From NCBI RefSeq assembly GCF_030546645.1, contig NZ_JAUOTO010000007.1, forward strand, positions 186,001 to 250,000: a stretch of DNA of 64,000 nt, read 5' to 3'. Made by a program: the position numbers and the translations under genes. Origin of the DNA: Flavitalea plasmicola. Its GTDB lineage: Bacteria; Bacteroidota; Bacteroidia; Chitinophagales; Chitinophagaceae. How positions within the stretch are numbered: position 1 is the first letter of the stretch; each line of letters starts with the position of its first letter. Below, one piece after another: positions 12,382 to 28,194 of this stretch. The notes under the pieces are model-generated. The model saw only the letters and a list, made by a program, of their open reading frames with translations, was not told the DNA's origin and made no database searches.

Positions 12382-12389
12382 TACATTTG
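12382..12389 (+). promoter_or_regulatory. Putative -7 box (TACATTTG) ahead of cobalamin riboswitch 1
   Basis: TACATTTG fits the TAnnTTTG consensus and lies just after the receptor stop codon, about 12 bases before the riboswitch structure begins. The identical octamer lies at the same relative position before riboswitch 2, which strengthens both calls. Confidence 0.55.
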
Positions 12390-12399
12390 CGCAGATACT

Positions 12400-12593
12400 G
12401 GTTCCGCAACAGGCGGATTAAAAGGGAAGTCCGGTGAAAAACCGGCGCTATCCCCGTAGCTGTAAATGCCCCCGTAAATGACTGGTGCTTCTACCACTGT
12501 CCGTCAGCCGACGGATGGGAAGGTACACCGGTACGGCATAAGCCAGAAGACCTGCCAGCATCACTCGATATTCATCACTTTCGGGCGAAAAGT
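12400..12593 (+). ncRNA. Cobalamin riboswitch 1, controlling the cobQ operon
   Basis: The leader carries hallmark cobalamin aptamer elements in order: GGGAAGTCCGGTG, CCGGCGCTATCCCC, GTAGCTGTAAATGCC, a P6-like CCGTCAGCCGACGG hairpin, and the B12 box GCCAGAAGACCTGCC at 12542-12556. An expression-platform hairpin, ACTTT-CGGGCG-AAAAGT (12577-12593), ends directly against the cobQ ATG at 12594. This geometry suggests that bound cobalamin hides the translation start. No U-rich terminator is seen. Edges are approximate. Confidence 0.93.
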
Positions 12594-16025: not shown

Positions 16026-16564
16026 CCGGCGGCCCGGGTGCAGGTAAAACAAGCCTGCTGCAAGGCTTGCATCGGTCGGGGTATCCTTGTCAGGCAGAAG
16101 CTTCCCGGCAGCTGATCATCGAAGAGAAGGAACGGGATTCCGGATGCCTGCCCTGGCTGGACCTGCCCTGCTTCGCCGGAAAGGTATTACAGCGCATGGT
16201 GTCGTCCTTCGATGCAGCGGGCAATACAGGGCCCGTCTTTTTCGATAGAGGTATCCCTGATATCATCGCCTATCTCAGGGCTGCCCATCTGCCGGTGGGA
16301 GAGTTGTATCACGCGGCGCTGGAAAGGTACCGCTACGCCCCGACCGTTTTTTTGCTGCCGCCCTGGGAGGAGATCTATATCCAGGACAGCGAAAGATGGC
16401 AGACATTTGCAGAGGCGGCGCAGTTGGCGGATCATATATGGACAGTTTACCGGCAAGCAGGTTATCAGGTGGTAGCGCTTCCCCTGGTCCCGGTGCAGCA
16501 GCGGATCATATTTATTCAGGACACCCTTTCAGCCCTGGCCGGAAAGGAAAAACAATTTTCATGA
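16007..16564 (+). CDS. P-loop NTPase of the AAA_28/NadR-kinase-like type, function in cobalamin pathway unknown
   Basis: A 185-residue protein with a Walker A motif GGPGAGKT at residues 8-15. It has an E-x-SRQLI segment as in the AAA_28 (Ttd14/NadR-related) family, and FFDRGIPD at about residues 79-86 as a Walker B-like/DR-G motif resembling nucleoside- and small-molecule kinases. It overlaps cbiB by 19 bases and the btuF gene by 4 bases, so it is an integral part of the operon. The family contains predicted kinases. No known cobalamin enzyme has this name. A kinase making threonine phosphate or alpha-ribazole phosphate is a guess from context, because no PduX-type threonine kinase is seen here. 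Confidence 0.8.
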   Translation: MPKYIITGGPGAGKTSLLQGLHRSGYPCQAEASRQLIIEEKERDSGCLPWLDLPCFAGKVLQRMVSSFDAAGNTGPVFFDRGIPDIIAYLRAAHLPVGELYHAALERYRYAPTVFLLPPWEEIYIQDSERWQTFAEAAQLADHIWTVYRQAGYQVVALPLVPVQQRIIFIQDTLSALAGKEKQFS

Positions 16565-17721
16565 TCAACATCAGACTTTTTTATTGCGCCCTCCTGCTCA
16601 CGATCTTTTCCTGTAAGGAAAGAACAGCTCAAAACACGCCGCCGCCCGCCGTCGACAACAGTGACAGCCCCGGGGTCAGTACCACGATACGATACGCCCA
16701 TGGCTTTACCATCGACTATCATGACCATTACAAGCTGGTGCATGTGCTGGACAGGAAAGGAGAGGTGACGGATACCCTGGAATACCTCCTGGTGCAAAAG
16801 GGACATCCCGCCCCCGCCGGCCATCCCAAAGCGCAGGTGATTCCCATCCCTGTCTCCTCCTTTATAGCCATGTCGTCCATGCATGTGGGAATGGCAGATT
16901 TCCTGGGAATAGCCGACAGGATCACCGGGCTGGGCAGCTTACAATATATCAACTCCCCCGTCGTCCGGGCAAATATCAAAGCCGGCAAGACCATACAGGT
17001 GGGCCTCGACGGCAATCTCAACAATGAGCTGCTGATCTCCCTCCATCCCGGCCTCATCATAGCCATGAGCAACCCCGAGGCTACGACGGCTAAGTATAAA
17101 ACGCTGATGGACGCGGGCATACCCGTCATCCTGAACGCGGAATGGCTGGAATCCACTCCCCTGGGCAGGGCCGAGTGGGTAAAGCTAATGGCCGCGCTGG
17201 TGAATAAAGAAGACCTGGTGAATAAAAAATTCGATAGTGTGGCGAGATCTTACGACAGCCTGGTGCGGCTGGCCAGCCAGGTGAAGGAGCATCCCCGCGT
17301 CATCATCGGAATGCCTTACAAAGGATCCTGGTTCGTCCCGGCTGGTGACAGCTATATGGCCCATTTCATCCGGGATGCGGGAGGAGGGTACAAATGGGCT
17401 GATACCAAAGGCGTCGGCAGCCTCGCCCTGAATTTCGAAGCCGTGGCGCCGGAGGCACTGAAGGCGGATTTCTGGCTGAATATTGGATATTTGGATCGCA
17501 AACAGGATATAACGGCAAAGGACACCCGATTTGCCAGCTTCAGATCTTTCAGTACAGGGCAGCTGTTTAACAACAATAAAAGGACCAACGACATCGGGTC
17601 CAACGATTATTGGGAATCCGGCGCCGTAAACCCCCAGGTACTGCTGGCGGATATGATCAGCATCCTTCACCCGGAGCTGCTGCCCGGGCATACCCTCGTT
17701 TATTATAAACAATTACCATGA
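16561..17721 (+). CDS. btuF: Corrinoid ABC transporter substrate-binding lipoprotein (BtuF-like)
   Basis: The product is 386 residues from ATG at 16561, which overlaps the preceding stop as ATGA. It has a lipoprotein signal with lipobox IFSC (Cys18), then a periplasmic-binding fold of the FecB/BtuF type (PF01497), with VIPIPVSSFIAMSS starting the first lobe and PGLIIAMSNPEA in the linker region. It should capture corrinoid in the periplasm and hand it to BtuCD, whose genes follow directly. An in-frame ATG at 16396 would lie inside the P-loop gene and lacks a signal peptide, so I rejected it. An iron-siderophore ligand cannot be excluded, but riboswitch and context favour B12. Confidence 0.87.
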   Translation: MINIRLFYCALLLTIFSCKERTAQNTPPPAVDNSDSPGVSTTIRYAHGFTIDYHDHYKLVHVLDRKGEVTDTLEYLLVQKGHPAPAGHPKAQVIPIPVSSFIAMSSMHVGMADFLGIADRITGLGSLQYINSPVVRANIKAGKTIQVGLDGNLNNELLISLHPGLIIAMSNPEATTAKYKTLMDAGIPVILNAEWLESTPLGRAEWVKLMAALVNKEDLVNKKFDSVARSYDSLVRLASQVKEHPRVIIGMPYKGSWFVPAGDSYMAHFIRDAGGGYKWADTKGVGSLALNFEAVAPEALKADFWLNIGYLDRKQDITAKDTRFASFRSFSTGQLFNNNKRTNDIGSNDYWESGAVNPQVLLADMISILHPELLPGHTLVYYKQLP

Positions 17722-18779
17722 TGCAGCTGAGAACCAACCAGCGAAAACGCAAAACCATACAGCTGGCATTTCTTTGCCTGCTGCTGCTGGCGGCCTTCTT
17801 CCTGGACATTGCGCTGGGACCGGTGAGGATACCTTTACGATCCATTTGCAGGATCGTCCTTTCCCTGCCCGGAGAGGACAGTACCTGGCAATACATCGTC
17901 ACGCAGATCAGGATACCAAAGACTTTTACAGCCGTCATCGCGGGCTGCGGACTTTCCGTCAGCGGACTGCAGATGCAGACCCTGTTTCGCAATCCCCTGG
18001 CCGAACCAGCGGTGCTGGGCGTTACTGCCGGCGCCAGCTTAGGAGTAGCCGCCGTCATGCTGGCAGGAGGAAGCATCACCACGCTGTACACGATCCGCGA
18101 ACTCGGTCTCTCCGGAAGCTGGCTGATCACTGTCGCCGGTTGCACAGGCGCCGCAGCCGTCATGCTGCTGGTGATTCTGATCTCGAGAACAGTCAGGGAC
18201 AATATCATGATGCTGATCATCGGCGTTATGGTCGGCACCGTCACTTTGTCCATCATCAGCATCTGGCAATACTTCAGCGACCCCGAGCTGATCAAAGATT
18301 ACCTCATGTGGACCTTTGGGTCGCTGGGCGGGGTGACGGGGGCGCAGCTGTATATTTTAGGACTGGCGGCCTTCGTGGGCCTCGTCATTTCCTTTCTTTC
18401 CTCCAAAATGCTGGACGCCCTGCTGCTGGGAGAAAATTATGCCAGAAGCATGGGCGTAACGACACAGCGGGCGCGGGTGATCATCATCTGCAGCACGAGC
18501 CTGCTGGCAGGCAGCATCACGGCCTTCTGCGGCCCCATCGGATTTATAGGGATTGCGGTACCGCAAATGGCACGTTCCCTCTTTGCCACTTCCAATCACC
18601 GCGTCCTCATACCCGCATGCTGCCTCATCGGCACCATCCTCATGCTGCTATGTGATGTGATAGGACAATTGCCGGGCAGCCAGGCGGCCCTGCCCATCAA
18701 TATCGTCACGGCCCTGGTGGGCGCCCCCACCGTCATATGGATGATCCTTAGAAAAAATAATTTAAGCATATTCGGATGA
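17718..18779 (+). CDS. btuC: Corrinoid ABC transporter permease (BtuC/FecCD family)
   Basis: A 353-residue membrane protein with about 10 helices. Family signatures include LRIP-like QIRIPKTFTAVIAGCGLSV, then MQTLFRNPLAEPAVLGVTAGA and CGPIGFIGIAVPQMAR. It forms the membrane channel of the BtuFCD importer that moves corrinoids across the inner membrane. It overlaps btuF and btuD by 4 bases at each end, indicating translational coupling. Confidence 0.92.
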   Translation: MMQLRTNQRKRKTIQLAFLCLLLLAAFFLDIALGPVRIPLRSICRIVLSLPGEDSTWQYIVTQIRIPKTFTAVIAGCGLSVSGLQMQTLFRNPLAEPAVLGVTAGASLGVAAVMLAGGSITTLYTIRELGLSGSWLITVAGCTGAAAVMLLVILISRTVRDNIMMLIIGVMVGTVTLSIISIWQYFSDPELIKDYLMWTFGSLGGVTGAQLYILGLAAFVGLVISFLSSKMLDALLLGENYARSMGVTTQRARVIIICSTSLLAGSITAFCGPIGFIGIAVPQMARSLFATSNHRVLIPACCLIGTILMLLCDVIGQLPGSQAALPINIVTALVGAPTVIWMILRKNNLSIFG

Positions 18780-19798
18780 GCAGCCGTCAGACCTTATTAG
18801 AAACAAAGGGATTGGAGGTGGGATACAGATCCCGCCGGGGCAAGCCCGTCACCATTGCAGGACCGATCTCCGCGACCATCCGGTCAGGACAGCTCATCTG
18901 CCTCCTGGGACCCAACGGCGCAGGCAAGTCCACGCTATTGCGGACCCTGGCCGGACTACAACCCTCGCTGGGCGGCGCCATTCACATTATGGGTGATCCC
19001 AGCTCCGCTCAACGGACTCCCGCCGCATTGGCCCGAAAGATCAGCCTGGTCCTGACAGACCCCGTTCGCTACAGCAACCTCACGGCCTATTCCCTGGTAG
19101 CCCTGGGAAGATATCCTTATTCGGGCTGGCTCGGCACCCTGAAGGAAGAAGACCGGCGTATCATCGCATGGGCCATGGAGGTGACAGGCATTGGATCATA
19201 TGCCGATCGAAAAATAGGAATGCTCAGCGACGGTGAAAGCCAGAAAGTGATGCTGGCCCGCGCCCTGGCACAGGACACGCCATTGATGATGCTGGACGAA
19301 CCCACGGCCCACCTGGACCTCCCCAGCCGCATACGGATCATGCAGCTGCTGCATAAGATGGCCAGGCAAACGCAGAAAGGGATCCTGCTCTCCACCCACG
19401 AGCTCGACCTGGCTTTGCAGGTGGCCGATGAGCTATGGCTGCTCCAGACGGGCGGCAGGCTGGACAGAGGTATGCCGGAAGACCTGGTGCTCAACGGCAC
19501 CTTCGAGTCTGTCTTCGACAAAGAAGGCATTCTCTTTGACAAACGAACAGGTAGTTTTAATATCCATTCCGGTCATCTGAAAAAAATAGGGCTCGCCGGC
19601 AAGGGCGTGGCTACTTTCTGGACAAAGAGAGCCCTGCAGCGGGAAGGTTTCGAGGTGACGGCGGCAGGCCAGGCAGCCATGGACATACGGGTGGAGGAAG
19701 GCGCCGCTCCTGTATGGCTGCTGGACTCATCGTCGGGCAGGCAAACCTTTGACAGCTTATCCGGCCTGCTCGACACATTACGCAATCAATTTATTTGA
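18776..19798 (+). CDS. btuD: Corrinoid ABC transporter ATP-binding protein with C-terminal extension
   Basis: A 340-residue ABC ATPase. Walker A is GPNGAGKS at residues 45-52. The signature is LSDGESQK instead of LSGGQ. Walker B is MMLDEPTAHLD, and the switch His is in STHELD. It energises the BtuC permease. FecE/BtuD proteins usually end near residue 255-260. Here about 80 more residues follow (from about 262), beginning KKIGLAGKG and containing TFWTKRALQREGFEV. That extra domain has no recognised role in my reading. The stop precedes the adenosyltransferase ATG by 1 base. Confidence 0.92.
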   Translation: MSSRQTLLETKGLEVGYRSRRGKPVTIAGPISATIRSGQLICLLGPNGAGKSTLLRTLAGLQPSLGGAIHIMGDPSSAQRTPAALARKISLVLTDPVRYSNLTAYSLVALGRYPYSGWLGTLKEEDRRIIAWAMEVTGIGSYADRKIGMLSDGESQKVMLARALAQDTPLMMLDEPTAHLDLPSRIRIMQLLHKMARQTQKGILLSTHELDLALQVADELWLLQTGGRLDRGMPEDLVLNGTFESVFDKEGILFDKRTGSFNIHSGHLKKIGLAGKGVATFWTKRALQREGFEVTAAGQAAMDIRVEEGAAPVWLLDSSSGRQTFDSLSGLLDTLRNQFI

Positions 19799-19799
19799 T

Positions 19800-20387
19800 A
19801 TGAAGATCTATACAAAAAAAGGAGACACAGGCACCACAGGCCTTTTCGGCGGCAGCCGTGTTGCGAAGGACGATGTCCGGGTGGAATGCATCGGAACGCT
19901 GGATGAAGTGAATTCCAGCATCGGGCTGCTGCGCGTGCAGCTGGGAACTGAACATGCATGGCAGCCAAAGCTGCATAAGATCCAAAAGGACATGATGGAT
20001 ATGATGTCGCATCTGGCCAGGCCCTCCGACGCCAAAAAAGTCAACAACAATCCCATGCCCGAAGACGGAGCGGCGCTCTGCGAAGCCTGGATCGATGAGC
20101 TGGAAGCGGCAATGACCAGCCCTTCCGAATATTTCCTGCTGCCGGGCGGTGATGAGATCTCGGCCTTGTGCCACCTGGTGCGTACACAGATGCGCAGAGG
20201 CGAGCGAAGACTGACGACACTGATGCGGGCTGATGCTGTGCACCCGGCCATCCCGGCGTATATCAACCGGCTATCCGATCTTTTCTTTACATTGGCGAGG
20301 GCGGAAATGGATAAAGCAGGAGTGGCAGAAGAGAAATGGAAATTATTCCTGTACAAAAGATTTAAAGGTGAGACGTCGGGGAAATAA
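19800..20387 (+). CDS. pduO: PduO-type cob(I)alamin adenosyltransferase
   Basis: The product is 195 residues from ATG at 19800. The N-terminus MKIYTKKGDTGTTGLFGG is the ATP-binding signature of the PduO/MMAB family, and RRGERRL near residue 135 is the conserved helix motif. The enzyme transfers the 5'-deoxyadenosyl group of ATP to the cobalt of reduced corrinoid, making the adenosylated forms that downstream enzymes use. An in-frame ATG at 19749 lies inside btuD and is rejected. It is the last gene of the first B12 operon. Confidence 0.94.
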   Translation: MKIYTKKGDTGTTGLFGGSRVAKDDVRVECIGTLDEVNSSIGLLRVQLGTEHAWQPKLHKIQKDMMDMMSHLARPSDAKKVNNNPMPEDGAALCEAWIDELEAAMTSPSEYFLLPGGDEISALCHLVRTQMRRGERRLTTLMRADAVHPAIPAYINRLSDLFFTLARAEMDKAGVAEEKWKLFLYKRFKGETSGK

Positions 20388-20419: not shown

Positions 20420-20427
20420 TACATTTG
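20420..20427 (+). promoter_or_regulatory. Putative -7 box (TACATTTG) ahead of cobalamin riboswitch 2
   Basis: The same TACATTTG octamer as before riboswitch 1 lies here, 32 bases after the adenosyltransferase stop. It suggests that the btuB operon has its own promoter in addition to any read-through. Confidence 0.55.
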
Positions 20428-20437
20428 CCACCGATCA

Positions 20438-20642
20438 TGGTTGATCCGCCTACAGGCGGATCATTAAAAGGGAAGTCCGGTGCAAATCCGGCGCTATCCC
20501 CGTAGCTGTAAGTGCCATTCTCAGATTCCGGCAAACTTCAAACCACTGTCCGTCAGCCGACGGATGGGAAGGTCAGCCGGTAGGGCACGAGCCAGAAGAC
20601 CTGCCAGATCATTTCATCATTCAAGGCTTTCGGGTGAAAAGC
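20438..20642 (+). ncRNA. Cobalamin riboswitch 2, controlling the btuB operon
   Basis: The aptamer core is nearly identical to riboswitch 1: GGGAAGTCCGGTG, CCGGCGCTATCCCC, GTAGCTGTAAGTGCC, the CCGTCAGCCGACGG hairpin, and the B12 box GCCAGAAGACCTGCC at 20591-20605. A GATCCGCC/GGCGGATC hairpin marks the 5' side. The final hairpin GCTTT-CGGGTG-AAAAGC (20626-20642) abuts an ATG at 20643. That ATG is not the btuB start but opens a 24-codon ORF. Control is likely at translation initiation. Confidence 0.93.
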
Positions 20643-20729: not shown

Positions 20730-22679
20730 ATGAGCAAGAAACATTTCTTTCTTTTCATGTTGTCGGCAGCCGGCAGCAGCGCCCTTTTCGCACAATCATC
20801 AGACACCAGCGGCCGCAGGCTGGACGAAGTAGTAGTGACAGCCACCAAATTTCCCGTTAAGCAAAGCCTTACAGGTAAAGTACTGACAGTGATCACCAAA
20901 GAGCAGCTGGAAAAAAGTGCCGGCAAACAGCTCACGGAAGTACTGAACACCCAGGCCGGCGTCTTCGTTGCAGGATCCCAGGGTCCGCTGGGATCGACAC
21001 AGACCGTTTTCCTGCAGGGCGCCTCGGGGGGAAAGACGCTCATCCTCATCGATGGCATCCCCGCTTATGATCCTTCAGGTATCGCCACGTCTTTTGACCT
21101 GAACCTCATCAACACAGACCAGGTGGAAAGAGTAGAGATATTAAAAGGGAGCCAGTCCACCCTCTATGGCAGCGACGCCGTGGCAGGGGTCATTAATATC
21201 ATTACCCGCAAAGGAGGGAACAAGCCCGTCAACCTTTCCGCGCATCTGTCAGGAGGCAGCTACGGCACCTTCAAAGGCTCCGCCGGCATAGACGGAAAAA
21301 TAAAGAACACTTCCTACAATGTCATGTACACCCACCTCCGCAGCGATGGGATCTCCTCGGCCTATGACTCCAGCCATAAAAGCCACTACGATAACGACGG
21401 CTTTTCAGAGAACCTCGTAATGGTCAATGTCGGTCAAAAGATCAGCGATGCGCTGAATCTGAGAGGCAATTTCCAATACAACCAGTACGACAACGACCTC
21501 GACGCGGGTGGATACAAGGATGATAAATTATACACCACCACCAATAAGAACACCCAGGCCGGCATTGGCGCGGACTACACCATTCTCCACTCGGCGGTCC
21601 ATTTCAATTATAATTACAACACGGTGACCAGGAGTTACCTGGACGATTCGGCGACGCTGATCACACAGGGCGGCAGCTTCAGCAAAAGTAAATTCACCGG
21701 CACGTCACATTACCTGGAGCTGTATACCAACATCGGCATATCCCGGCACCTCGATCTGTTGGGCGGAGTGGATTACCGCAACCAGCGGATCAATGAAACA
21801 AGCCTGTATATCTCCCAGTACTACGCGCCACCTCTTTCTGTCCTGAGCCCGGATAGCGCCAAAGTCCGGCAGTTCGCGGCCTATGTCTCCGCCATTGTAA
21901 AGAATATGGGAGGGTTTAATTTTGAAGTGGGCGGACGCTACAACAGCTTTAACAGGTATGGCGACGTCTTTACCTATTCTATCAATCCCTCTTATCTGAT
22001 CAATTCCAGGGTAAAGATCTTCGCTAATCTTTCTTCCGGCTTTTCAGCCCCCACCTTGTACCAATTGTATTCTGAATACAGAAACCCCTCCGGCGACCTT
22101 AAGCCGGAAAGGACCACCAGCGTGGAAACAGGCATTCAATACAACTTTTCTCCTTTCAACATCAGGGCGCTGTACTTCCACCGCAACACCAGGGACAATA
22201 TAATCTTCTACACCGATGCGAATTACACCAGCTGGTATATGAACCTGAACAAGCAGCAAGACCAGGGGGCTGAGCTGGAAGCTTCTTACAGGATAGATCG
22301 GTGGTCTTTCTCGGGAAATTACACGTACACCACGGGAAAAGTCACCACGCCCGTGAATGGGAAGGACACCACCTATAATAATCTCTACCGCCGTCCTAAA
22401 AATGCGGTGAACCTGAGCGCAGGCTTTCAAGCCACTTCGAAGCTCTTCCTCAGCACGGCTTTACGGACAACAGGTAAGCGTATCGAATCGGTATTTGGCG
22501 GCGCACCGGTGAACATAGATAGTTATTATACGCTGGACGCTTATGCCGAATACAAGGTCACATCTTTCCTGAAAGTGTTCGCGGATGGCAAGAATCTCAC
22601 CAATCAACAGTTCTTCGACATACCCGGTTATAGCACCAAAAAGTTTAACTTCATGGCCGGCGTCAGCCTGCGTTGGTAA
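20730..22679 (+). CDS. btuB: BtuB-like TonB-dependent corrinoid receptor
   Basis: A 649-residue outer-membrane receptor with a signal peptide ending LFAQ. A TonB-box-like segment LDEVVVTATKF follows, then a plug domain with KTLILIDGIPAYDP and ILKGSQSTLYGSDAVAGVINI. The barrel ends in a C-terminal aromatic residue (SLRW). The length is close to E. coli BtuB. It is the first large gene after riboswitch 2, which supports a corrinoid ligand. The downstream gene starts 12 bases later. Confidence 0.9.
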   Translation: MSKKHFFLFMLSAAGSSALFAQSSDTSGRRLDEVVVTATKFPVKQSLTGKVLTVITKEQLEKSAGKQLTEVLNTQAGVFVAGSQGPLGSTQTVFLQGASGGKTLILIDGIPAYDPSGIATSFDLNLINTDQVERVEILKGSQSTLYGSDAVAGVINIITRKGGNKPVNLSAHLSGGSYGTFKGSAGIDGKIKNTSYNVMYTHLRSDGISSAYDSSHKSHYDNDGFSENLVMVNVGQKISDALNLRGNFQYNQYDNDLDAGGYKDDKLYTTTNKNTQAGIGADYTILHSAVHFNYNYNTVTRSYLDDSATLITQGGSFSKSKFTGTSHYLELYTNIGISRHLDLLGGVDYRNQRINETSLYISQYYAPPLSVLSPDSAKVRQFAAYVSAIVKNMGGFNFEVGGRYNSFNRYGDVFTYSINPSYLINSRVKIFANLSSGFSAPTLYQLYSEYRNPSGDLKPERTTSVETGIQYNFSPFNIRALYFHRNTRDNIIFYTDANYTSWYMNLNKQQDQGAELEASYRIDRWSFSGNYTYTTGKVTTPVNGKDTTYNNLYRRPKNAVNLSAGFQATSKLFLSTALRTTGKRIESVFGGAPVNIDSYYTLDAYAEYKVTSFLKVFADGKNLTNQQFFDIPGYSTKKFNFMAGVSLRW

Positions 22680-22691
22680 AAATATTATACA

Positions 22692-23627
22692 ATGAAAGCC
22701 TGCTCCTTTCTTCCCGCCGCCACGAAAATGATCTATGACATGGGCTTAGAAGATCTTCTGTATGGAGTGACCTTCGAATGCCCGCCGGAAGCAGCCGGCA
22801 AGCCGGCGGTGGTGCGCTGCATGCTGGAAGGAAATAACTACAGCAGCGAAGAGATCGATAGAATATTCTCCGCCTCCAAAGCCCAGGGGAAAAGCCTGTA
22901 TTATGTGGAGGAGGACCTGCTGCAGGCCATTGCGCCCGATATCATCTTCACGCAGGATGTCTGCGATGTCTGCCAGATCGATACGGCATGCACGGCAGCA
23001 GCCATTGCCCGCCTGGAACGACGGCCTGTGCTGATCCCTCTGACTCCATCCAGCCTGCAGGATGTCTTCCAGACAGCGGTGCTGATCGCTACGGCCCTGG
23101 GCCGCGAAGAAGCAGCCTATCGCCACCTGTCCATCCTGCAAAAAAAGATGGATCATATCATCGACGAATTACGCAGGCACAGGGCTCCGCACAGAAGGGT
23201 GATGGTGATGGAATGGATCGAGCCCGTGTACAATTGCGGACATTGGATACCTTACCAGGTAGCCTGCGCGGGAGGTATCGACATGCTATCAAATCCCTCG
23301 GGAGACAGCATCGTCACCCCCTGGGAAAAGATCGTACGCTATGATCCCGAAGTATTGGTCATCGCCCCCTGCGGGTTTCACACGGGTCGCTCGGCCGAAG
23401 AGCTGCACCTGCTGCAATCCAAACAGGGGTGGCAGGATCTCCAGTCCGTGAGGAACGGAGCCGTATTCCTCGCTGACTACGACCTGTTCACACAACCAAG
23501 TCCGGGAACCCTCACGGATGGGATCGAGCTGCTGGCTGCGCTGTTCCATCCCGGTATATTCACCGTGCCTGAAACCTTACGTTCCAAATACCGCATTGTA
23601 CCCGATAAATTTCCGCAGCATGTGTAA
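22692..23627 (+). CDS. BtuF-like corrinoid-binding protein without signal peptide
   Basis: A 311-residue protein of the PF01497 periplasmic-binding fold, starting MKACSFLPAATKMIYDMGL. The N-terminus is already the first strand of the fold, so there is no export signal and it should stay in the cytoplasm. It carries unusual cysteines: Cys4, FECPP, VRC, and a DVCDVCQIDTAC cluster at about residues 90-100. The HWIPYQVACAGGIDML stretch resembles the second lobe of BtuF-type proteins. It lies between btuB and a Cys-rich small protein, and its end overlaps that gene by 8 bases. A corrinoid carrier, sensor or processing partner is plausible, but the function is unknown. Confidence 0.8.
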   Translation: MKACSFLPAATKMIYDMGLEDLLYGVTFECPPEAAGKPAVVRCMLEGNNYSSEEIDRIFSASKAQGKSLYYVEEDLLQAIAPDIIFTQDVCDVCQIDTACTAAAIARLERRPVLIPLTPSSLQDVFQTAVLIATALGREEAAYRHLSILQKKMDHIIDELRRHRAPHRRVMVMEWIEPVYNCGHWIPYQVACAGGIDMLSNPSGDSIVTPWEKIVRYDPEVLVIAPCGFHTGRSAEELHLLQSKQGWQDLQSVRNGAVFLADYDLFTQPSPGTLTDGIELLAALFHPGIFTVPETLRSKYRIVPDKFPQHV

Positions 23628-23844
23628 GCACGAGGAAAAATATTGTCCCCGTTGCGGAACTCCTTTCGAATGCAAAGTAGGAGATATCACGCAGTGCCAG
23701 TGCTACGGCATCCGGCTGTCACCGGAAGAACGGGCCTTTATTGAAGGCAGATACCAGGACTGCCTCTGCCGGAAATGCCTCTCGGAACTGCAACAGCGGT
23801 ATACCTTATTCAGGGAAAAATATTTTTCGAATGAAGGAAAATAG
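23620..23844 (+). CDS. Small cysteine-rich CWC-type protein
   Basis: The product is 74 residues from ATG at 23620, overlapping the BtuF-like gene by 8 bases. It has nine cysteines (2, 9, 12, 18, 26, 28, 48, 50, 53), in pairs such as CPRC, CQC and CLCRKC. This fits the Cys-rich CWC family (PF14375) and suggests a metal site, probably zinc. The tail is helical and charged. An in-frame ATG at 23518 lies within the previous gene and is rejected. The gene overlaps cobU by 14 bases, so it belongs to the operon. Its role is unknown. Confidence 0.78.
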   Translation: MCKHEEKYCPRCGTPFECKVGDITQCQCYGIRLSPEERAFIEGRYQDCLCRKCLSELQQRYTLFREKYFSNEGK

Positions 23845-24370
23845 ACAGACATCCGGCCTCATTTTCATCACTGGCGGCGCCCGCAGCGGCAAAAGCCGTC
23901 ACGCCCAGGAGCTGGCCCTGCAATGGAGCGACAATCCTGTTTACATAGCGACGGCCCGGCAGTTCGACGACGAGTTCAAACAACGGGTCCGCCGTCATCA
24001 GCAGGAGAGGGACCACCGATGGACCTCCATCGAAGAAGAAAAAGCGCTCAGCCGGCTTGACCTGGGAGGCAAGGTGGCTGTGATCGACTGTATCACGCTG
24101 TGGTTGACGAATTTCTTTATCGATCTTCGATATGACGTGGATGCATGTCTGGAAGCCTGCCGGAAAGAGATCGATGCGTTATGCCTGCAGGATGCCCTTC
24201 TCCTCATCGTAAGCAATGAGATCGGCATGGGCGTACATGCAGAGACGGAGATGGGAAGAAAGTTCACGGACCTTCAGGGCTGGATGAACCAGTACATTGC
24301 ATCGAAAGCAGGCACGGTGCTCCTGATGGTCAGCGGTATCCCCCTCGTCGTAAAAAAAGAAGCATCATGA
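23831..24370 (+). CDS. cobU: Bifunctional adenosylcobinamide kinase / adenosylcobinamide-phosphate guanylyltransferase
   Basis: The product is 179 residues from ATG at 23831. The P-loop is GGARSGKS at residues 15-22. His56 in RVRRHQQ corresponds to the guanylylated histidine of the family, and SNEIGMGVH is a conserved motif. CobU phosphorylates adenosylcobinamide and converts it to the GDP form for nucleotide-loop assembly. A longer ORF start at 23741 lies within the CWC gene and is rejected. It overlaps the next gene by an ATGA. Confidence 0.94.
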   Translation: MKENRQTSGLIFITGGARSGKSRHAQELALQWSDNPVYIATARQFDDEFKQRVRRHQQERDHRWTSIEEEKALSRLDLGGKVAVIDCITLWLTNFFIDLRYDVDACLEACRKEIDALCLQDALLLIVSNEIGMGVHAETEMGRKFTDLQGWMNQYIASKAGTVLLMVSGIPLVVKKEAS

Positions 24371-25050
24371 CCCGGGCCTATATGAACTGGAGTGGCGGAA
24401 AAGATTCCGCGCTTGCCCTGAACAGGATACTGGAAGATCCGGCCTGTCAGGTACAAAGCCTGCTCACCAGCATGAATGCAGAAGCAGACCGGATCTCCAT
24501 GCACGACGTGCGCAGGGGGCTGCTGGAAGCGCAGGCGGCATCCATCGGCATTCCGCTGCGGACACTGGACCTGCCCCATCAGCCCGCTATGGATGTATAT
24601 GAGGCCGCCATGGGGGAAAAGGTAGCGCTCCTGAAGGCCGAAGGCTGTACCCACGCTATCTTTGGCGACATCTTCCTGGAAGACCTGCGACGATACAGGG
24701 AAGAAAAGTTGGAAAGCATGGACCTGACCTGTATCTTCCCGTTGTGGAAAATCCCATCCGCGGTGCTGATGCGGGAATTCCTGGAGAAGGGGTTTAAAGC
24801 AATCGTCATATGCGTGAACACCCGGTGGCTGGACAAAAGCTTCTGCGGAAGGATCATCGATGAGACTTTTTTGCAGGACCTGCCCGCAGACGTGGACCCC
24901 TGTGGCGAAAATGGAGAATATCATTCCTTCGTTTTCGAAGGGCCCATTTTCAGCTATCCCATTCCTTATGAAAAAGGAGCTATCGATTTTAAAACATACA
25001 AAGGACCCGAGGGTCCGGCAAAATTTTATTTCTGTGACCTACATTGCTGA
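24367..25050 (+). CDS. Dph6-like ATP pyrophosphatase (ATP_bind_4 family), embedded in cobalamin operon
   Basis: A 227-residue protein with the PP-loop motif SGGKDS at residues 9-14, the hallmark of ATP pyrophosphatases that adenylate a substrate before amide or thiol transfer. GENGEYHSFVF and FGDIFLEDLR are typical of the PF01902 family, whose eukaryotic and archaeal member Dph6 amidates diphthine on EF2. Bacteria do not make diphthamide, so the usual name is misleading here. The gene overlaps cobU (4 bases) and cobT (17 bases from its GTG). This places it in the B12 pathway. An amidation or ligation step on a corrinoid or alpha-ligand is an inference. Confidence 0.82.
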   Translation: MTRAYMNWSGGKDSALALNRILEDPACQVQSLLTSMNAEADRISMHDVRRGLLEAQAASIGIPLRTLDLPHQPAMDVYEAAMGEKVALLKAEGCTHAIFGDIFLEDLRRYREEKLESMDLTCIFPLWKIPSAVLMREFLEKGFKAIVICVNTRWLDKSFCGRIIDETFLQDLPADVDPCGENGEYHSFVFEGPIFSYPIPYEKGAIDFKTYKGPEGPAKFYFCDLHC

Positions 25051-26095
25051 TACAACCGCTCAATTGCAGGAAACCTTACAAGGCCGCATCGACAGCAAAA
25101 CAAAGCCCCTGGGCGCTTTAGGACGACTGGAGGAGCTGGCGCTGCAGGTCGGTATGATCCAGGGAACAGCCCATCCACGGCTAACCCACCCTCATATCGT
25201 TGTGTTCGCGGGAGACCATGGCATCGCCGCCACCGGCCTGGTAAATCCCTATCCCCAGGCTGTGACGGCACAAATGGTCCTCAACTTTCTCCAGGGCGGC
25301 GCGGCCATCAATGTATTGTGTCGTCAGCACGGCATCGGGCTGCAGGTGGTGGATGCAGGCGTGAATGTGGACTTCGCCCAACTGCTGCCGGAAGGAACCC
25401 CCTCTCTCATCGATGAGAAGATCGCTCCCGGCACCCGCAACTACCTGGAAGGGGAGGCAATGACCAGGGAAGACGCCTTAAGGGCCATGGAAGCGGGGAA
25501 AAAGATAGTGACCGGCCTGCATAAAGAAGGCTGCAACTGCATTGGGCTGGGGGAAATGGGCATCGGCAACACGTCCTCCGCATCGCTGATCATGAGCTTT
25601 GTCACCGGCTTCCCGGTGGAAGAATGTTGCGGGCGTGGCACGGGCGTCAACGACCAGCAACTGGAAACAAAGATAGCAACCCTCCGCGCTGTCCACCGGC
25701 GGCATGTGCAGGCAATCGCCGCATCCCCCGATGTGGTGACGATCCTCCGGCACGTAGGAGGCTACGAGATCGCCATGATGACAGGCGCCTATCTCCAGGC
25801 AGCCGCCTTAAAAATGGTGATCCTTGTGGATGGCTTTATTACCACCGCCGCCTTATTGCTGGCTACCCTGCTGGACCCGGAAGTAAAAGATTTTTGTATC
25901 TACTCACACACCAGCGGCGAACAGGGACATCAACGAATGCTGGAGTACCTGAACGCCCGCCCGCTGCTGAACCTGGGCATGCGGCTGGGCGAAGGCACCG
26001 GCGCTGCCATGGCCTATCCCATCGTACAGTCGGCCATGGCTTTCCTGCGCGAGATGGCTTCGTTCGAATCAGCCGGGGTGAGTAAGCGCGAGTAG
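25034..26095 (+). CDS. cobT: Nicotinate-nucleotide:dimethylbenzimidazole phosphoribosyltransferase
   Basis: The product is 353 residues from a GTG at 25034. The motif TKPLGALGRLE near residue 25 aligns with the family start, and LGEGTGAAMA near the C-terminus carries the catalytic Glu. CobT makes alpha-ribazole phosphate from the lower-ligand base and nicotinate mononucleotide. No ATG fits well: one at 24968 would add 22 residues inside the Dph6-like gene, and the next internal ATG removes the conserved N-terminus. I chose GTG because it gives the usual spacing of about 24 residues. It overlaps the previous gene by 17 bases. Confidence 0.92.
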   Translation: MTYIADTTAQLQETLQGRIDSKTKPLGALGRLEELALQVGMIQGTAHPRLTHPHIVVFAGDHGIAATGLVNPYPQAVTAQMVLNFLQGGAAINVLCRQHGIGLQVVDAGVNVDFAQLLPEGTPSLIDEKIAPGTRNYLEGEAMTREDALRAMEAGKKIVTGLHKEGCNCIGLGEMGIGNTSSASLIMSFVTGFPVEECCGRGTGVNDQQLETKIATLRAVHRRHVQAIAASPDVVTILRHVGGYEIAMMTGAYLQAAALKMVILVDGFITTAALLLATLLDPEVKDFCIYSHTSGEQGHQRMLEYLNARPLLNLGMRLGEGTGAAMAYPIVQSAMAFLREMASFESAGVSKRE

Positions 26096-26110: not shown

Positions 26111-26920
26111 ATGATAAAGCAATGGAAAATATTCCTTACGGCCGTCATGTACTTCACCCGGATAAGGGTGCCGCAGAACATTGGGCATGATCCGGAACAC
26201 CTGAACAAGGCAGCCACCTATTTCCCCCTGGTAGGAGGGATCGTCGGTGGTATCTCGGCCCTCGCGTTCCTGGTGTTCTCCCGGCTCATCTCAACGGACA
26301 TCGGCATCCTTTCTTCCATGATCGCCGGACTGCTGGTGACCGGGGCCTTTCATGAAGATGGATTTGCCGATGTATGCGACGGCTTTGGCGGCGGCTGGAC
26401 AAAAGAAAAGATCCTCCTTATCATGAAGGACAGCCGGGTGGGCGCTTTTGGCGTCATCGGGCTGATAGCGATGCTGGGCAGTAAGTTCCTCCTGCTCCGT
26501 GAGCTGCCGTCTTTTACACCCGAGCTCAACGGCTCACCCCGCCTCCTCTTTTTCAACTACCGCTATTTCATCGGCGCTGTGATCACAGCCCATACTTTGA
26601 GCAGGCTGATGCCCGTGGTCGCTTTGCAATGGACAGACAATGTGACGGACCCGGAACATAGCAAGTCCAAACCCATCACTGACCGGCGGCTGCCATTGCC
26701 GGCGCTCCTGATGGCAATATTGTTCGGGGTCCTGCCCCTTGCTTTCTTTCCCTGGCCTTTCTGGCTGGTGATCCTTCCCGCAGCGTATGCTACCTTTGAA
26801 ATGACAAAGTATTTTAAAAAATGGATCGGCGGCTATACGGGCGATTGCATGGGCGCCATCCAGCAAGTGACGGAGATCGCCATCTACCTGGGTTGGATCA
26901 TCGTCTGGAGGTATACCTGA
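26111..26920 (+). CDS. cobS: Adenosylcobinamide-GDP ribazoletransferase (cobalamin synthase)
   Basis: A 269-residue integral membrane protein with about 6-7 helices. The signature FHEDGFADVCDGFGG provides the metal-binding acidic residues (EDxxADxxD). YFTRIRVP near residue 16 is also conserved. CobS joins adenosylcobinamide-GDP to alpha-ribazole or its phosphate, completing the corrinoid nucleotide loop at the inner membrane. It starts 15 bases after cobT and ends 9 bases before cobC. Confidence 0.94.
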   Translation: MIKQWKIFLTAVMYFTRIRVPQNIGHDPEHLNKAATYFPLVGGIVGGISALAFLVFSRLISTDIGILSSMIAGLLVTGAFHEDGFADVCDGFGGGWTKEKILLIMKDSRVGAFGVIGLIAMLGSKFLLLRELPSFTPELNGSPRLLFFNYRYFIGAVITAHTLSRLMPVVALQWTDNVTDPEHSKSKPITDRRLPLPALLMAILFGVLPLAFFPWPFWLVILPAAYATFEMTKYFKKWIGGYTGDCMGAIQQVTEIAIYLGWIIVWRYT

Positions 26921-26929
26921 ACCACCTAT

Positions 26930-27580
26930 ATGAACGATATATATCTGATACGGCATACGACACCCGCAATAAGCAAGGGCATCTGCTATGGACAGACGGA
27001 CCTGGATGTCACGGAAACCTTTATGGACGAAGCAACTGTCATCCGCCGGCATTTGCCGTCCGGATTTTCGGCCGTGCATAGCAGCCCGCTGCAACGCTGT
27101 GCCCGGCTGGCGGAACATTTATTCCCGGAACACCCCCTGACCCTTCATCCCCAGCTGATGGAGATCCATTGTGGAGAATGGGAAATGCGTGGCTGGGACG
27201 ATCTGCCAAAGGAGGAAATAGAACCCTGGATGAAAGATTTCGTGCAGGTGAGGATACCCGGGGGTGAGAGTTATGCCGACCTGCATCAGCGGGTGACGGG
27301 ATGCTTCCACCGGATCCTTGACAATGCACATACCGCCAACGGCCCCATTGCCATCGTAGCGCACGGCGGGGTTATCCGGAGCATCCTCTCCCATCTCACC
27401 GGTACGCCTTTAATAGACAGTTTCAAGGTATTTTCCCTCTACTACGGGTGCGTGATACGCCTGTATGACACCGGGGCGCCGGAAGGCCTGGGATACGAGA
27501 TCCTGTCCAACCTGGCGCCGCCAGAAAAAGAACAACACAAACCAAAGAGCTTTTATTCCAACGATAAAGGCCCTGCCTGA
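26930..27580 (+). CDS. cobC: Alpha-ribazole phosphatase, histidine phosphatase family
   Basis: A 216-residue phosphoglycerate mutase-like protein. The phospho-acceptor is in LIRHTTP (His9). CYGQTDLDVT is the CobC-type substitute for the usual YGxxDxPLT, and VAHGGVI holds the second catalytic histidine. CobC removes the 5'-phosphate from alpha-ribazole 5'-phosphate or from the cobalamin 5'-phosphate product. It is the last gene of the second B12 operon, and a polar tail of about 20 residues follows the fold. Confidence 0.88.
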   Translation: MNDIYLIRHTTPAISKGICYGQTDLDVTETFMDEATVIRRHLPSGFSAVHSSPLQRCARLAEHLFPEHPLTLHPQLMEIHCGEWEMRGWDDLPKEEIEPWMKDFVQVRIPGGESYADLHQRVTGCFHRILDNAHTANGPIAIVAHGGVIRSILSHLTGTPLIDSFKVFSLYYGCVIRLYDTGAPEGLGYEILSNLAPPEKEQHKPKSFYSNDKGPA

Positions 27581-27603: not shown

Positions 27604-28194
27604 ATGGGAAAATGGATGGATTTCGACTGGAATCAGCTCCTCACCGTGACATTCACATTATTTGCCGTGATAGACATCATCGGGAGCATACCCCTTCTTC
27701 ACGCCCTGAAGAAAAAGCTGGGCGGCCTGCACGAAGGGAAAGCCACGCTGATCTCGGGGCTGCTGATGATAGCCTTCCTGTTTGCCGGCGAAAAATTATT
27801 GCAGGTCCTGGGGGTGGACCAACGCAGCTTTGCCGTTGGCGGCTCGATCGTCATCTTTATCCTGGGGCTGGAAATGGTGCTCGGGGTGGAATTCTTCAAA
27901 AGCGAGCCGGACGCGAAAGCCTCCATCCTCGTACCTATCGCCTTTCCACTGATAGCCGGATCGGGTACTTTGACCACCATCATGTCCCTGAAAACCAATT
28001 TTGAGACCTCCATCGTGCTGTTCGCCATCCTGATCAACCTTATTATCATCTTCATCGTGCTTAAATCCCTGAATTCTATAGAAAAAATCTTAGGACAGGC
28101 AGGTATGATTGCTGTACGTAAATTTTTTGGCGTAGTTTTGCTGGCCATCGCCGTAAAAATATTCAGCAGCAACCTCCGGGAACTGCTGAAATAG
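27604..28194 (+). CDS. MarC-family membrane protein
   Basis: A 196-residue protein with about six hydrophobic helices and the MarC-family features DIIGSIPLL in the first helix and the LIAGSGTLTTI motif in the second half. The family (PF01914, UPF0056) is widespread but has no settled function; the old link with multiple antibiotic resistance in E. coli is not supported as a direct role. It follows cobC by 23 bases. A TACCTTCG element at about 27590 resembles a -7 box, so it may be transcribed on its own. Confidence 0.85.
   Translation: MGKWMDFDWNQLLTVTFTLFAVIDIIGSIPLLHALKKKLGGLHEGKATLISGLLMIAFLFAGEKLLQVLGVDQRSFAVGGSIVIFILGLEMVLGVEFFKSEPDAKASILVPIAFPLIAGSGTLTTIMSLKTNFETSIVLFAILINLIIIFIVLKSLNSIEKILGQAGMIAVRKFFGVVLLAIAVKIFSSNLRELLK

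Follow-up and report, generated by a model that had tools for sequence, protein, structure and literature searches.

The window analysed here is a whole stretch of 64,000 nucleotides of Flavitalea plasmicola (contig NZ_JAUOTO010000007.1, positions 186,001 to 250,000), and the subject of this study is three genes of its cobalamin (B12) operon. They code for a BtuF homologue that has no export signal (22692..23627, named BtuFcyt herein), a cysteine-rich protein of the CWC family, and a PP-loop protein of the DUF71 family. Starting from an RF00174 cobalamin riboswitch, the genes btuB, BtuFcyt, CWC, cobU, DUF71, cobT, cobS, cobC, and marC form a single compact run, in which the intergenic gaps or overlaps from btuB onward do not exceed 23 bases. 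The successive overlaps BtuFcyt/CWC, CWC/cobU, cobU/DUF71, and DUF71/cobT measure 8, 14, 4, and 17 bases. An earlier note on this DNA had described a signal-less BtuF homologue, a 74-residue CWC protein with nine cysteines, and a PP-loop protein interleaved with cobU and cobT under a riboswitch, and the coordinates, overlaps, and profile matches agree with that description. The features of the run are the following:

20420..20622, plus strand: cobalamin riboswitch preceding the operon (RF00174, 101.1 bits)
20730..22679, plus strand: btuB, TonB-dependent corrinoid receptor, immediately after the riboswitch (PF00593/PF07715)
22692..23627, plus strand: BtuFcyt, signal-less protein of the BtuF fold, 311 aa, with invariant C30, C91, C94, and C227 (PF01497, 1.2e-10)
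23620..23844, plus strand: CWC protein, 74 aa, nine cysteines (PF14375, 4.4e-15)
23831..24370, plus strand: cobU (PF02283, 4.7e-52)
24367..25050, plus strand: PP-loop ATP pyrophosphatase assigned by motif to DUF71-B12, with ENGEYH at residues 181-186 (PF01902, 2.7e-32)
25034..26095, plus strand: cobT, GTG start (PF02277, 6.8e-132; TIGR03160)
26111..26920, plus strand: cobS (PF02654)
26930..27580, plus strand: cobC-like phosphatase (PF00300)
27604..28194, plus strand: MarC-family membrane protein, final gene of the run (PF01914)

Because the same arrangement recurs in relatives, it is not due to chance. The three genes very probably belong to a B12 module that handles imported corrinoid, that is, to a system acting after import; this reading is based on the conserved gene order, the position of the riboswitch, the co-occurrence of the genes, the signal-less BtuF fold, the four invariant cysteines, and the DUF71-B12 motif. 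In a family sample of 117 Chitinophagaceae genomes (assigned by means of named relatives), BtuFcyt was detected in 21, one of the matches being a fragment. Within 8 kb of the gene, the 19 readable loci other than the window contained DUF6580 (17), BtuB (16), DUF71 (12), CWC (11), MarC (10), CobU (9), and CobT (8), and the fullest order seen in a relative was riboswitch-btuB-DUF6580-btuFcyt-CWC-cobU-DUF71-cobT-cobS-cobC-marC. At 23 of the 24 loci with CWC and BtuFcyt on one strand (two of these loci are repeats), less than 700 bases separate the centres of the two genes; the named loci contain the duplicates L258=L199, L319=L207, and L305=L092, which are also inside the totals of 117 and 24 loci quoted in this text.

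By sequence identity in the phylum sample described below, the BtuFcyt proteins can be divided into a close group A (52-65%) and a distant group B (31-37%). Riboswitches in relatives were located with a model, R1. Its 11 aptamers had all been found with Rfam beforehand, and nine belong to loci that also enter the subsequent counts or searches; Rfam confirmed the riboswitches at ten loci, some outside the Chitinophagaceae. The earlier note would have given up its idea if the three genes lay mostly away from cobalamin genes in related genomes. The close BtuFcyt relatives and the CWC genes of the family are not so placed: upstream of BtuFcyt, a same-strand cobalamin riboswitch was present in 21 of the 24 group A and family loci, and CWC was downstream of one in 43 of 53 family loci. 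DUF71 came after one in 28 of 51 loci (33 from the phylum sample and 18 family-context loci). The distant BtuFcyt proteins differ, and they weigh against the reading given above: in none of 13 loci, representing 13 of the 17 group B genomes, did the gene follow a riboswitch, and it was found away from B12 genes. One could then suppose that BtuFcyt binds haem, an Fe-S centre, or another metal in the cytosol and is merely placed in the B12 regulon. This is unlikely, since the close relatives are almost always beside btuB or a cobalamin riboswitch, and group B is still accompanied by DUF71 in 15 of its 17 genomes.

Among the named loci, which are the best 80 of 589 and favour close relatives, a known B12 gene was present within 7 kb in 57 of the 64 that are Bacteroidota-like, versus 4 of the 16 others, ten of which showed nothing with the queries used. 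In addition, a gene for cobyrinic acid a,c-diamide synthase in Nitrosomonas lies upstream and stops about 12 bases short of BtuFcyt. On a Chloracidobacterium contig, DUF71, DUF6580, BtuFcyt, and a CWC-DUF5522 protein are consecutive, with no cob genes found in the locus; of the independent evidence for the module, this row is the strongest. The last of these proteins (L325:10966-11376) joins the CWC domain to DUF5522 (PF17653), also a cysteine-rich family.

Co-occurrence was evaluated in a phylum sample, a single draw of 148 genomes judged to be Bacteroidota from named relatives, with E <= 1e-20 as the threshold for presence of BtuFcyt; matches below the family cut-off were dropped (CobU in 23 genomes, DUF71 in one, and PduO in two). 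Above the cut-off, DUF71 was present in 38 genomes, CbiB in 29, CobU in 37, CobS in 42, CbiZ in 5, and BtuFcyt in 24. DUF71 accompanied BtuFcyt in 21 of these 24 genomes and was present in 17 of the 124 others (Fisher p=2.3e-12; as with all the co-occurrence statistics given here, the genomes are not phylogenetically independent and no tree correction is included). B12 use alone does not explain this tie, because it persists among the 111 genomes with PduO, where DUF71 was present in 20 of 21 with BtuFcyt versus 17 of 90 without it (p=5e-11). At the genus level, 16 of the 19 genera with BtuFcyt have DUF71.

The DUF71 family has been divided into Dph6 and DUF71-B12, the latter adjoining B12 uptake genes and having ENGEF/YH as its hallmark in place of the EGGE/DXE motif of Dph6 (de Crecy-Lagard 2012, PMC3541065). 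What is said here of that study refers to the portion of its text available to us, in which no reaction of DUF71-B12 is biochemically established, and in which the protein is proposed either to perform the job of CbiZ in bacteria or to open an alternative pseudo-B12 route. With SGGKD in its PP-loop and ENGEYH at residues 181-186, the window protein is, as judged by its motifs, a member of the DUF71-B12 subgroup, and thus the term unassigned, applied to it in the earlier note, does not hold. The ENGE(F/Y)H motif was found in 81 of 89 DUF71 rows (87 distinct), and its histidine, as well as W8, K12, and D13 of the PP-loop, in all 89. A true Dph6 function was rejected, as TIGR03679 gave 87.1 bits against a cut-off of 197.3 and the Dph6 motif is absent; the position of the Dph6 catalytic glutamate (E188 of PF0828) is occupied by histidine. 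The window protein shares with the published DUF71-B12 the SGGKD and ENGE(F/Y)H motifs, the B12 uptake neighbours, and a genome without CbiZ. It differs in that DUF71 occurs here mainly in genomes lacking CbiB or CobS and is statistically linked to a signal-less BtuF homologue, of which no mention was found in the available portion of PMC3541065. In the DUF71 tree, operon and stand-alone members were not separated. Two loci (L287 and L288) have a divergent copy with EQGEYH between DUF6580 and BtuFcyt, and L287 has the usual copy too.

The published proposal corresponds to an alternative in which DUF71 replaces CbiZ, converting pseudo-B12 to cobyric acid that CbiB and CobU/T/S/C rebuild to cobalamin, with BtuFcyt presenting the substrate (PMC3541065, available portion). 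The window itself fits it, as cbiB, cobU, cobT, and cobS are all there and its genome (8.73 Mb, with a single PF01902 protein) gave no match to CbiZ (PF01955); in several relatives, too, DUF71 sits between cobU and cobT, and DUF71 and CbiZ were together in 0 of 38 genomes, in line with the same study. The phylum sample, however, argues otherwise. CbiB was present in all five CbiZ genomes, which is what remodelling would predict, but in only one of the 38 DUF71 genomes, that of the window itself, and 31 of the 38 lack cobU, cobS, and cbiB jointly, ten of them carrying DUF71 after a riboswitch and btuB (G033, G065, G069, G077, G080, G099, G108, G122, G138, and G146). Therefore, in Bacteroidota DUF71-B12 cannot as a rule work by supplying CbiB with cobyric acid, and a replacement of CbiZ is quite unlikely. 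The absence of these genes also lowers remodelling as the core task of the module. The earlier note had proposed corrinoid handling or remodelling: the neighbourhoods, the position of the riboswitch, and the co-occurrence speak for the former, while the presence of DUF71 and BtuFcyt in genomes with no above-cut-off match to cobU, cobS, or cbiB speaks against the latter, since the two proteins cannot generally rely on nucleotide-loop rebuilding. The three proteins probably process B12 inside the cell instead of rebuilding it. The B12-salvage setting is common to the module and to the remodelling enzymes CbiZ and CbiR (PMC7733943, available text), but the genome of the window is without CbiZ and the module genes are found without the rebuilding pathway. 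Unlike the pattern in the available portion of PMC3541065, 23 of the 29 CbiB genomes of the phylum sample lack both CbiZ and DUF71.

The genome of the window probably imports corrinoids instead of making them from scratch, as suggested by its gene content. De novo synthesis of the corrin ring was rejected since, among five TP_methylase matches, none exceeded the cut-off of the corrin-ring methyltransferases (CbiE/F/H/L); of the five, two passed the SUMT cut-off and one that of RsmI, a fourth resembled YabN weakly, and the fifth matched no NCBIfam model at 1e-10.

The predicted structure of BtuFcyt (pLDDT 91) has the fold of BtuF and the class III periplasmic binding proteins (PF01497). It departs from periplasmic BtuF in having no signal peptide, in the invariant C30, C91, C94, and C227, and in that BtuC is frequently not nearby. 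The four cysteines are present in every one of the 115 rows compared, of which 112 are distinct, and seem to point into the ligand cleft; L313, L321, and L323, whose frames are short or broken, are not among these rows. By a simple measure of N-terminal hydropathy, and not a signal-peptide program, the peak was 1.1 for BtuFcyt versus 2.5 for the periplasmic BtuF at 16561-17721, and a peak of at least 2.0 was reached by 1 of 115 BtuFcyt rows versus 23 of 29 rows of periplasmic BtuF. The absence of an export signal, remarked on in the earlier note, is thus borne out by this measure in the window and across relatives.

The CWC protein is a member of Cys_rich_CWC by score (56.2 bits with PF14375, curated cut-off 24), and eight of its nine cysteines are invariant in a sample of 16 sequences; its best match by sequence in the PDB had an E of 0.17. 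PF14375 was found in 58 of the 117 Chitinophagaceae genomes, and the contexts counted are from 53 of the 57 other than the window's (G175, G176, G242, and G244 are outside the count), 10 of the 53 loci being without a same-strand riboswitch upstream. Of the 43 riboswitch-linked loci, 31 have a btuB-type receptor or DUF6580, sometimes along with further module genes, between the riboswitch and CWC; 6 have MetE there and 4 NrdB-NrdA, and the last 2 show no gene that could be recognised. NrdAB is one B12-independent isozyme. MetE is another, repressed by cobalamin (PMC2211319, available text). The CWC of Chitinophagaceae belongs to the B12-shortage regulon, and CWC is tied to B12 shortage more broadly than to BtuFcyt. 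CWC is not associated with BtuFcyt in the phylum sample (p=0.47). It is associated there with CobU, CobS, and CbiB, through one family, f15, to which 26 of the 28 genomes with both CWC and CobU belong. This family holds 28 of the 41 phylum CWC matches, all of which pass the Pfam cut-off; at f15 loci, three proteins matching that of the window scored 24-31 bits and have no B12 genes as neighbours, and at a fourth (L133) nothing matched it. Loci with CWC after metE (L211, L214, L215, L221, L229, L232, and L126) or after nrdBA (L223, L234, L235, L249, L231, L233, L131, and L135) mostly, but not always, have a riboswitch, which was not found in L131 and L135, outside the family, where CWC is behind NrdBA. 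A gene for a 4HBT thioesterase comes after CWC in several metE and nrdBA loci.

These contexts bear on two other explanations. CWC could serve the B12-independent enzymes, for example by giving zinc to MetE or redox support to NrdA, its place in the btuB operon reflecting shared regulation only, and the MetE and NrdBA loci are what would be expected of such a role. We regard it as rather unlikely, since the loci with a btuB-type receptor or DUF6580 outnumber them, the Chloracidobacterium CWC accompanies BtuFcyt and DUF71 in a locus with no metE or nrdA match, and a CWC protein is listed between cbiA and sirC in the cobamide cluster of Sulfurospirillum (PMC7755780, available text). Alternatively, the module as a whole could be regulatory, sensing or signalling B12 shortage without acting on the corrinoid, in keeping with the small size and cysteine richness of CWC and with its place after metE and nrdBA, in most cases with a riboswitch upstream. 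This is very unlikely: the riboswitch senses B12 already, DUF71 has the fold of an ATP-using enzyme, and a Pfam scan of the three proteins gave no DNA-binding domain above the cut-off.

A further candidate is DUF6580. At 117 BtuFcyt loci, it was nearby in 56, BtuC in 15, and neither in 46, numbers that concern loci and not whole genomes. Beside btuB/BtuFcyt, with BtuC not nearby, DUF6580 is found at L087:8964-9551 and about 60 related loci (L086 to L329). Its predicted fold is S-component-like and nearest to the B12 transporter BtuM; the first seven Foldseek rows are BtuM or vitamin S-components, with a best E of 0.035 and none below 0.001. One of the rows is 4huq_S, which we take to be a vitamin S-component. 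By sequence, DUF6580 had no match in the PDB. BtuM is a B12 transporter with a ligating cysteine (PMC6072759, available text), Cys80 in BtuMTd, whereas DUF6580 had no invariant or near-invariant cysteine in 34 sequences. A literature search for DUF6580 returned no paper. From its modelled fold and its neighbours, DUF6580 is a candidate for an unrecognised inner-membrane corrinoid importer.

Taken together, these data allow a tentative explanation that includes the chemistry, to which we give slightly less than an even chance. In a module for B12 shortage, BtuFcyt would be the cytosolic acceptor of the corrinoid delivered by BtuCD, in the window, or by the BtuM-like DUF6580, in relatives, and would hold it between its lobes. 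The cleft cysteines may act as thiolate ligands, or hold a metal or Fe-S centre, and may alter the cobalt ligand or redox state ahead of adenosylation by PduO. DUF71 would act on the bound corrinoid in a reaction that splits ATP to AMP and PPi, the likeliest being the amidation of a damaged side-chain carboxylate or another change that renders the corrinoid usable; amidation is suggested because Dph6 is an amide ligase and because here too a protein would present the substrate. CWC would be a small metal-binding partner produced under B12 shortage, and CobU/T/S/C optional extras, present in this genome too. This chemistry stands much less firmly than the assignment to the module. The ATP-dependent step that the earlier note gave to the PP-loop protein is still plausible, and DUF71-B12 and its link to B12 salvage are already known (PMC3541065, available portion). 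New, as none was found in the open-licence literature, are BtuFcyt as a cytosolic family with four cysteines, the link of CWC to btuB, metE, and nrdBA, and DUF6580 as a BtuM-like stand-in for BtuCD; on CWC behind cobalamin riboswitches with these genes, no report was found in the literature searched, including the available text of PMC7755780. A more speculative proposal, which we consider doubtful, is that BtuFcyt founds a cytosolic BtuF-fold family, bacterial counterparts of the CblC chaperone with a four-cysteine site (thiolate, zinc, or Fe-S) in the corrinoid cleft, where corrinoid from BtuCD or DUF6580 would be stripped or reduced and passed to DUF71 for repair or activation, DUF6580 being a hitherto unrecognised and widespread B12 importer of the inner membrane.

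Little is known of how bacteria handle imported B12, or of the protein that carries it across the inner membrane in the absence of BtuCD, and the module supplies candidates for both. DUF71-B12 gains a partner, and the role proposed for it is argued against in Bacteroidota; the CWC proteins of one bacterial family are placed in a B12-shortage regulon.

Upstream of the operon, a second riboswitch (12382-12573) is followed by cbiP, an aminotransferase, cbiB, an AAA_28 protein, and the genes for periplasmic BtuF, BtuC, BtuD, and PduO, the last four as follows:

16561..19798, plus strand: periplasmic BtuF, BtuC, and BtuD of this second operon (PF01497, PF01032, PF00005)
19800..20387, plus strand: PduO-type corrinoid adenosyltransferase (PF01923, TIGR00636)

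The AAA_28 P-loop protein (PF13521, 16007-16564), between cbiB and btuF, is by position a candidate L-threonine kinase, and BtuD (18776-19798) is extended at its C terminus by about 85 residues that have no Pfam match. In the operons of Pedobacter and its kin, a SIR2 protein is encoded between BtuFcyt and DUF71. The gene for this deacylase adjoins DUF71 at L086, L087, L260, L261, L263-L265, L267, L268, L270, L272-L274, and L329, and the same adjacency was seen without BtuFcyt at L124 and L138. Finally, a MarC-family gene is a recurrent late gene of the B12 operons of relatives (L122, L127, L194, L196-L200, L203, L206, L207, L224, L240, L248, and others).

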